This document shows, piece after piece, positions 32,419 through 33,649 of a stretch of DNA of 64,000 nucleotides. The notes beneath the pieces are model-generated. The model ran no database searches. It had not been told where the DNA came from and saw only the letters and a program-made list of their open reading frames with translations. Position numbers and translations under genes: made by a program. Every line of letters begins with the position of its first letter. Position 1 is the first letter of the stretch. The stretch is from Chitinophaga sp. 180180018-3. GTDB lineage: Bacteria > Bacteroidota > Bacteroidia > Chitinophagales > Chitinophagaceae. The stretch covers positions 1,674,001 through 1,738,000 of the forward strand of contig NZ_CP140772.1 of assembly GCF_037893185.1 (NCBI RefSeq). The letters run 5' to 3'.

Positions 32419-32466
32419 TTGTGTTGCGTAAATAACCTTTTATGTAGATAGGATAAAGCGAGGGGG

Positions 32467-33360
32467 CTATTGCCAAATGGTTTCCCGCCTCCAGTCTTCA
32501 GTAAATCCCATATATTCATAATCAAGGTGAGGATTATTATCAATAAGACTTAAAAGGTTGGATTTAAATTTTGAATCAGGCTGAATCTTACTGATTAAAT
32601 GTAGCATGCAACAAATCGTGGCGTATAAACTATTTACGTCAATTCCCTCCATGTCACGGATAAACCGGTGTTTCTTTCTTGATGGAAAGGTGATTGTTTT
32701 AGCCATTGATCTATATACAATTCTGCTATGATGTGCGCACCTGTTCCTCAATTGGCTGATACAGTGTAACCAATTATTGAGAATAGTATCAGGCAAGTTA
32801 AAATCACTACATATTTTTAGCTTAATGTCTCTTTCTCCTAAATGTTCAAACATCCTGGAAATTCTTCCGAAAGAGATAATTTCCATTATCATCCAACAGG
32901 GAGGTAATGGCGGTGTGTCGTAGAAATGCCTGTAATGCTTAATTGGAGCTTCGTCGGAATCTTTAACTTCCGCTTCGATGTAGGTTAGAAAATTATCAAA
33001 ATCAAAGGTAGGCAGAAAGTTATTTCTATCAATATACCAGTGAGCCCCAAGTTTATGAGCCATGGAATTGGACACTAATGTCTTAATTGAAACTTCAATG
33101 GTTTCAATAGCGTCAAATAAAATGAACTTCAAATTTCTGTCAAACAGAAAAAGGCCAATCACCTGATCGAAGTTAACATTCGATACAAATTTTCGGGTTT
33201 GAGCATCTTTGAATTTGTTGGTATAATGTTTTAGCCTGAAATAGCTGACATGTGACAACCAATGTGCTGAATTACTTTCAGCGATAATATTCAATCCTTT
33301 CTCCCTGAGAAGTTGGAGTTGCTCTTCAATGGTAAGTGTTGGAGTATTAAAACAGTTCAT
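32467..33360 (-). CDS. Abi family (AbiD/AbiF, Abi_2) abortive infection protein with HEPN motif
   Basis: A 297-residue protein without signal peptide or membrane segment. The N-terminal part has SHVSYFRLKHYTNKF (about 36-50), the SYxRLxxY hallmark of Abi_2 proteins. QLRNRCAHHSRIVY carries R205-N206-x3-H210, the RNxxxH/Rx4-6H motif of HEPN ribonucleases. Family members abort phage infection, probably by cutting RNA, and AbiF has been proposed as the ancestor of Cas13. The gene is visibly richer in A+T than its neighbours, suggesting acquisition by transfer. The ATG lies 8 bases after a terminator-like hairpin with its own promoter upstream, so the leader probably controls or forms part of the system. 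Confidence 0.9.
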   Translation of the reverse strand: MNCFNTPTLTIEEQLQLLREKGLNIIAESNSAHWLSHVSYFRLKHYTNKFKDAQTRKFVSNVNFDQVIGLFLFDRNLKFILFDAIETIEVSIKTLVSNSMAHKLGAHWYIDRNNFLPTFDFDNFLTYIEAEVKDSDEAPIKHYRHFYDTPPLPPCWMIMEIISFGRISRMFEHLGERDIKLKICSDFNLPDTILNNWLHCISQLRNRCAHHSRIVYRSMAKTITFPSRKKHRFIRDMEGIDVNSLYATICCMLHLISKIQPDSKFKSNLLSLIDNNPHLDYEYMGFTEDWRRETIWQ

Positions 33361-33375
33361 ATTTTACCAAAAAAA

Positions 33376-33402
33376 AAGCCTGCCATCATCTGCGGCAAGC
33401 TT
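33376..33402 (-). terminator. Second terminator hairpin of the abi leader
   Basis: On the minus strand AAGCTTGCC (33402-33394) pairs with GGCAGGCTT (33384-33376), with one U-G pair and a nine-base loop. Nine U follow directly (33377-33369), then only 8 bases to the abi start codon. No room remains for a separate ribosome-binding region. Confidence 0.75.
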
Positions 33403-33411
33403 CAATAAGAT

Positions 33412-33462
33412 AAAAAAAATAGCCTGCCAGATTTGCCCATGCATGCAGAGGGGTGGCAGACT
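33412..33462 (-). terminator. First terminator hairpin of the abi leader
   Basis: On the minus strand AGTCTGCCA (33462-33454) pairs with TGGCAGGCT (33429-33421), with one G-U pair. An inner CCC/GGG stem closes a loop with TGCATGCA. A run of eight U (33419-33412) follows. Confidence 0.7.
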
Positions 33463-33471
33463 GTGTTACCA

Positions 33472-33502
33472 CAAATTTAGATAAAAATCCTTCAAGGAAC
33501 AA
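33472..33502 (-). promoter_or_regulatory. Bacteroidota-type promoter for the abi leader
   Basis: On the minus strand TTG (33502-33500) and TAAATTTG (33479-33472) are separated by 20 bases and match -33 TTG / -7 TAnnTTTG. The start site would fall just before the first hairpin. Confidence 0.6.
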
Positions 33503-33617
33503 GAAAAATATCCGCGCAGATTAAAAATATTTTAGCATACATCTTTCACTTAAAAACGCAGCAGTTAAAGATGGTTTCGCATCAAATGAAACGCTCTTTC
33601 AAAAAATAATTTTTTAA

Positions 33618-33642
33618 ATAAGCAATTGCTCACTTATCTTTG
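33618..33642 (+). promoter_or_regulatory. TetR operator copy 1 overlapping the tetR promoter
   Basis: ATAAGCAATTGCTCACTTAT (33618-33637) has the perfect palindrome AGCAATTGCT inside and overlaps the -7 box TATCTTTG (33635-33642), which ends 7 bases before the tetR ATG. A second copy, 17 of 20 bases identical in inverted orientation, lies after the gene at 34260. This fits autoregulation. Confidence 0.7.
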
Positions 33643-33649
33643 TGGCGAA

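Follow-up and report, generated by a model that had tools for sequence, protein, structure and literature searches.

The locus

The window, i.e., the whole 64,000-nucleotide stretch of Chitinophaga DNA that was analysed, carries on its minus strand an intact abiF gene behind a promoter and two hairpins, with the following features.

32419..33649, no strand: A+T-rich island flanked by a PBP gene and a TetR gene; site empty in the relative G074
32467..33360, minus strand: abiF (AbiD/F-type HEPN toxin gene), 297 codons, intact; from the open reading frame, Abi_2, AbiD and 8vz6
32731..32748, minus strand: HEPN motif RNRCAH, residues 205-210; from the sequence and an alignment of 34 proteins
33375..33403, minus strand: hairpin 2, a second terminator whose U-tract runs to 33369, leaving 8 bases to the ATG; from a terminator scan
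33412..33467, minus strand: predicted AbiFr antitoxin RNA of type A, with a length of about 57 nt between inferred ends; from model R1
33421..33462, minus strand: hairpin 1, with AGTCTGCCA/TGGCAGGCT as outer and CCC/GGG as inner helix, CTCTGCATGCAT as loop and CAAATC as 3′ bulge
33472..33502, minus strand: promoter TTG-N20-TAAATTTG; from the sequence and the TAnnTTNG element in relatives' leaders

The window protein scores 171.6 bits against Pfam Abi_2 (PF07751; cut-off 25.6), is called AbiD by PADLOC (238.7 bits) and has a sole PDB match, 8vz6 (E 2.9e-41), to which it is homologous over its full length and which is described as PbAbiF with its antitoxin RNA (PMC12737573). Residues R205, N206, A209, H210 and H211 are invariant in the 34 aligned proteins (window included), and the copy in genome G046 is 74% identical to that of the window. 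Abi_2 has a single match in the whole window genome, namely this protein, and a contig search with the window protein gave 0 confirmed relatives.

The 142 bases 5′ of abiF hold the promoter TTG-N20-TAAATTTG, of the Bacteroidota type, followed by the two hairpins, whose 3′ arms are identical (TGGCAGGCT); the U-tract of hairpin 1 extends to 33412. A TAnnTTNG element lies just 5′ of the RNA in 59 of the 69 leaders compared below and is absent from 10. Both descriptive claims of the original prediction were borne out, i.e., an AbiF-family HEPN protein (Abi_2 score, RNxxxH motif, 8vz6 homology) and, in agreeing positions, a promoter and two U-tracted hairpins before an Abi_2 gene in an A+T-rich block. 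Folding of the leader by itself is unremarkable, both for 57 nt (z −1.17; 34/200 shuffles equally stable) and for 111 nt (z −2.18; 4/200), so that the case for an RNA rests on comparison. Hairpins serving as terminators of an upstream gene were rejected, as the neighbouring gene on that side, TetR, is oriented away from them.

The abiF unit is a single-gene island. Its G+C content is 0.35-0.37 across most of the gene and leader vs. mostly 0.43-0.55 in the surroundings, and its three annotated neighbours are the PBP gene, TetR and an MFS transporter. In the relative G074, PBP and TetR are separated by about 56 bp without abiF, compared with 1231 in the window, which supports arrival as a block and with it the lateral transfer that had been suggested from base composition. 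At the site of the window's abiF, G048 (L166) has a hydrolase-like gene (named by eye) between PBP and TetR, so that this site took at least two different single genes. G074 and G048 are 2 of 29 relatives' TetR loci; the other 27 showed no PBP gene within the 1.5 kb examined.

Conservation and covariation of hairpin 1

Relatives of AbiF were found in 21/79 genomes of the genus, 34/394 drawn from the family and 43/396 drawn from the order, the sets overlapping. From the 74 loci scanned, 69 leaders were kept, after removal of duplicates or near-duplicates (L001, L027, L028, L031) and of a masked locus (L014). Six of the 69 RNAs (L023, L045, L055, L057, L075, L077) were placed by hand, the descriptor having missed or misplaced them. 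Nearly all 69 leaders share one plan: an outer helix, an inner helix of 3-5 bp, a loop, a 3′ bulge of about 6 nt and a U-tract. A hairpin descriptor, composed after the leaders had been read, scores at least 28 in 64/69 leaders (window included; the best match in one of the 64, L045, is a second terminator) vs. 2/138 dinucleotide-shuffled sequences.

The RNAs fall into types. In type A (the window, L003-L006 and, with CTC/GAG, L032), the loop is CUCU and the inner helix mostly CCC/GGG. Most RNAs belong to type B, whose inner helix is usually CGCU/AGCG (CCCU/AGGG in L049, L051 and L076) and whose loop is different, and intermediates (L033, L034, L054 and others) combine CUCU loops with CGC/GCG helices. 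Alignment A1 contains 18 of the 69 RNAs and A4 contains 47, with L045, L057, L075 and L077 in neither. In A1, i.e., the 18 CUCU-type sequences aligned without reference to structure, 92.1% of the cells of 12 proposed pairs are paired and 7 pairs have changed on both sides. Covariation scores 0.472 there, compared with 0.217 in shuffled controls and no more than 0.126 in slid ones. For the 47 RNAs of type B, the corresponding values are 94.1% paired, 6 pairs changed on both sides and a score of 0.286, compared with 0.104 in shuffled controls and no more than 0.102 in slid ones. The slid controls correct for relatedness, whereas the shuffles do not.

R1, a covariance model trained on 17 relatives but not on the window, scores hairpin 1 at 67.2 bits (E 9.8e-16), its only match across the window genome at E≤0.001; with the type-B model R2, hairpin 1 goes undetected at E≤10. 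Judged by these comparisons, hairpin 1 is a real conserved RNA with both helices covarying. A chance origin of the hairpin is rejected by the covariation, the R1 match and the descriptor counts against shuffles.

The Rfam abiF model and a divergent RNA branch

The Rfam abiF model (RF03085, cut-off 37 bits) gave no match over the window leader and is absent from the list at E≤10, where other families alone appear, all of them weakly (best E 1.1). Within the genus, it detects 1/17 loci at E≤1 (L009, 29.9 bits, below the cut-off); it appears in 0/8 whole genomes, in a search whose controls gave no signal either. The two comparative checks that had been proposed for the RNA diverge: covariation in related leaders favours hairpin 1 (12 pairs, 7 changed on both sides), and the Rfam search of the window leader is negative. 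Because only one of the 17 genus loci appears at E≤1, and below the cut-off, the negative result is, on this comparison, a false negative for this RNA branch.

Hairpin 1 has the architecture of abiF RNAs, i.e., outer and inner helix, CUCU loop and a 3′ bulge of about 6 nt. It shares with RF03085 the plan of an outer and a short inner helix, the CUCU loop start and the CAAAUC bulge; however, the inner helix differs, that of the window being CCC/GGG. Model R1 also recognizes, at 44.5 bits, the Rfam-positive RNA that precedes abiF on a Bacteroides plasmid (L216). On the RCd22 RNA of phage phiC2, R1 does not reach E 0.1, whereas R2 and Rfam do find it. By sequence comparison, the window module is very probably of the known AbiF-AbiFr kind, with a divergent antitoxin RNA that the current Rfam model misses. 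AbiF-AbiFr, a system reported as the ancestor of Cas13, is thereby extended to an RNA branch overlooked by current annotation. Upstream of a Synechococcus plasmid abiF (L220), R1 has two matches (756-811 and 930-981), forming a two-motif leader like that of RCd22.

RNA types and the protein tree

A tree was made from 65 of the 74 AbiF proteins, omitting duplicates and broken, masked or short ones. Its labels were assigned by the author as 8 A, 10 intermediate and 47 B, with L023 and L055 labelled A despite having no CCC/GGG helix. The 8 A loci group with L033 and L034 in one protein clade (support 100/99); type A alone needs one change on the tree, with clade support of 59/55. On this tree, RNA type matches protein clade. 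Both RNA types occur within one genome in G046 and G067, and such matched toxin-RNA groups sharing a genome make specificity directly testable.

The second hairpin

The original prediction had joined both hairpins into a single related unit, which the comparison does not support: only hairpin 1 is conserved, and a leader scan found no second terminator in the nearest relatives (L003-L006 and L032), three of which have an RNA-to-gene gap of 12-23 nt. An RNA with two motifs spanning both hairpins, as in RCd22, is accordingly an unlikely reading, although the identical 3′ arms, the R1 score of hairpin 2 (20.4 bits, E 0.008, outer helix only) and the two R1 matches before the plasmid abiF of L220 speak for it. 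Hairpin 2 lacks the inner helix, the loop motif and the bulge, and is itself absent from the near relatives. Second terminator-like hairpins elsewhere have unrelated sequences, 9/69 leaders (the window and eight of type B) having one. The identical 3′ arms suggest that hairpin 2 arose by partial duplication, though inner helix, loop and bulge are missing, and it may best be read as an extra terminator, i.e., a second stop before a dangerous gene.

Solo RNAs and arrays in the genus

Over the 79 genus genomes, R1 gave 26 matches, 12 of which exceed 50 bits; the 14 weaker ones (<35 bits) were not sorted individually. Half of the 12 strong matches precede a full-length AbiF (G000, G009, G026, G046 and two in G067), and the remaining six have no intact toxin: beside the RNA there is no trace of abiF in G014, G070 and G007 and an eroded remnant in G023, and the type-A RNA loci of G053 and G054 lack the middle of the toxin. 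All 12 pairs are kept in these six copies, one pair having changed on both sides in G023. Abi_2 was not found genome-wide in G014, G070, G007 and G023, while G053 and G054 carry a type-B AbiF. The G014 copy resembles the window over 85 nt, i.e., the RNA and its edges. Behind any single solo copy there may be recent decay, too fresh to show. The type-A-like RNAs of the four Abi_2-free genomes lie near position 5000 of L148, L149, L150 and L151 (G014, G070, G007 and G023).

Model R2 gave 44 matches over the genus, 32 of them with at least 59 bits. Compared with the AbiF positions found in the same genomes, 13 of these 32 stand alone (G054 has five, G053 four, G046 three and G058 one), and the other 19 precede an abiF that is intact or disrupted (disrupted in G045, G052 and G075). 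The solo copies in G054, G053 and G046 form type-B arrays of promoter plus RNA, each between two full abiF genes and with a spacing of mostly 325-330 bp (L143 2793-4489, L144 2681-3715 and L145 3967-4956, respectively). A truncated ten-codon abiF start follows the RNA in 9 of the 12 array units, and the RNA has a pairwise identity of 92.6% across the 12 vs. 80-86% in the flanks. Since the three genomes are probably related, the arrays need not represent three events. Elsewhere, abiF is split, shortened inside or interrupted by a stop with the helices of the upstream RNA kept, as in L019/L027 (G075), L021/L028 (G045), L010 (G052) and L031 (G053).

Proposed mechanism and alternatives

For RCd22 in C. 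difficile, measurements showed that the RNA terminates upstream of abiF, that abiF rises 17-fold when the RNA is deleted, that the RNA relieves AbiF toxicity both in cis and in trans and binds AbiF, and that its stems matter; AbiF-RCd22 is located in a prophage lysis module, and RCd22 carries two abiF motifs (PMC12373285). By homology, the window locus is very probably an AbiF-AbiFr toxin-antitoxin module (protein toxin, RNA antitoxin; type III-like) working as its homologues do. Transcription from the promoter (33472-33502) would mostly stop at hairpin 1 and yield an AbiFr of about 57 nt, and a minority of transcripts would pass hairpins 1 and 2 into abiF, with hairpin 2 as a second stop limiting toxin mRNA. 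AbiFr would bind the AbiF HEPN dimer and block its RNase site, if termination, AbiFr binding and toxicity at the window locus follow the studied homologues. If AbiFr drops, e.g., through a conjectured phage shut-off of host transcription, AbiF might cleave RNA and halt growth before phage release. The short RNA with mRNA by readthrough that the original prediction had proposed is supported, with about 57 nt expected from hairpin 1, as is, by homology (8vz6, i.e., PbAbiF with antitoxin RNA, and RCd22), its antitoxin version of an RNA-controlled unit.

The module resembles PbAbiF-AbiFr (8vz6) in having a full-length homologous toxin, the RNxxxH motif and one small structured gene-linked RNA, as described in PMC12737573 and PMC12373285. 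With AbiF-RCd22 of C. difficile prophages it shares the order promoter, abiF-motif RNA, terminator, abiF, as well as an RNxCAH motif; the published RCd22 has two abiF motifs in a prophage, whereas in the window a single full motif lies in a single-gene island on the chromosome, and its protein is about 28% identical to the phiC2 copy. ToxIN, a type III toxin-antitoxin system, likewise joins an RNA antitoxin to an RNase toxin; however, the ToxIN RNA is described as consisting of repeats. The fold of the ToxIN toxin is not known to be related to that of AbiF.

That the hairpins are cis-acting attenuators only, and the short RNA without a function of its own, would fit the two terminators before the ATG and the repression in cis also reported for RCd22 (PMC12373285). 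A terminator, however, does not need the conserved inner helix, loop and bulge, every pair is kept in the six loci without an intact toxin, conservation of the 12 solo array copies exceeds that of their flanks, and RCd22 is reported to be active in trans (PMC12373285); this reading is very improbable. The prospect of the window copy being a dead or domesticated relic with an inactive toxin is rated just as low: the toxin is often broken or lost next to a sound RNA in the genus, but the window frame is intact, its catalytic residues are present, and it keeps its 74% identity to the G046 copy. Guidance of AbiF to target RNAs, like a crRNA with Cas13, is hardly credible, nothing at this locus favouring this other option of the original prediction: AbiD/F has been proposed as a Cas13 ancestor (PMC12165695, PMC12737573), but the aligned RNAs have no spacer-like free or variable stretch, the apical loop starts with CUCU in all type-A-like RNAs but one, and published studies of AbiF present the RNA as an antitoxin (PMC12373285, PMC12737573) and the RNase activity that it restrains as non-specific (PMC12737573). 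The toxin-antitoxin module is kept as the preferred reading.

Solo abiF RNAs in phages

The solo RNAs, which may counteract AbiF in trans, are the larger lead of this analysis. Among viral contigs, 45 match a pattern close to the Rfam abiF consensus, and in 17 of these a C. difficile-type AbiF follows. No AbiF-like frame was found in the examined stretch of the other 28, some of which end soon after the RNA (L224 after 35 nt, L265 after 420 nt, L237 after 546 nt). These 28 contigs have 22 distinct RNA sequences, and 19 of them have at least three further closing pairs; among the 23 that were searched with Rfam, 20 pass the abiF cut-off (9/12 and 11/11). By blastn with two solo RNAs, 67 and 4 phage records were found, partly as short matches, 53 of the 67 being Mycobacterium phages. 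For type A, a 16-base core has 10 matches in viral contigs, none with the rest of the RNA, and a fuller type-A pattern has none. Eight of nine hand-picked phage records pass the Rfam cut-off of 37 bits, with Bacillus phage P59 below it:

L266 2032-2068: abiF RNA of S-CREM1, 52.2 bits
L267 1502-1538: abiF RNA of Acj61, 58.0 bits
L268 1504-1540: abiF RNA of T7-Ah, 50.7 bits
L269 1502-1538: abiF RNA of CGphi29, 50.1 bits
L270 1502-1538: abiF RNA of PZL-Ah8, 50.1 bits
L271 1501-1537: abiF RNA of Thibault, 54.9 bits
L272 1501-1536: abiF RNA of Optimus, 39.7 bits
L274 1497-1534: abiF RNA of CRP-143, 50.8 bits

An abiF gene is neither annotated nor detected near the RNA in these eight records, and the genus names of the eight phages are absent from the 81 phage records with an AbiF match to the window protein, a query that a distant AbiF may escape.

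Because RCd22 acts in trans, and because phage TE is reported to have escaped ToxIN via an RNA mimic of the antitoxin, pseudo-ToxI (PMC5086642), the phage solo RNAs are hypothesized to be decoys that disarm host AbiF. In the open-access literature searched, only the S-CREM1 case of a phage solo abiF RNA was found, with no decoy reading attached to it (PMC9964418, PMC12197685). More broadly, and with the balance about even, AbiFr RNAs may be independent solo anti-toxin genes: kept by bacteria after loss of AbiF (for immunity to incoming AbiF or relief of addiction), amplified in promoter-RNA-terminator arrays, and carried as decoys by phages of several families (T4-like and T7-like, some in tRNA clusters), with AbiF-AbiFr specificity groups (types A and B) deciding which RNA works on which toxin. 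If functional, the solo RNAs would amount to RNA-based immunity and counter-defence against HEPN toxins, for which the pseudo-ToxI escape of phage TE is a precedent.

The abiF RNA of S-CREM1 sits within a tRNA cluster. In the viral contigs L226, L235 and L249, an abiF RNA match directly follows a tRNA gene and covers model positions 3-34, leaving the last outer pairs uncovered; these matches are candidates for tRNA-linked solo RNAs or attachment-site remnants.
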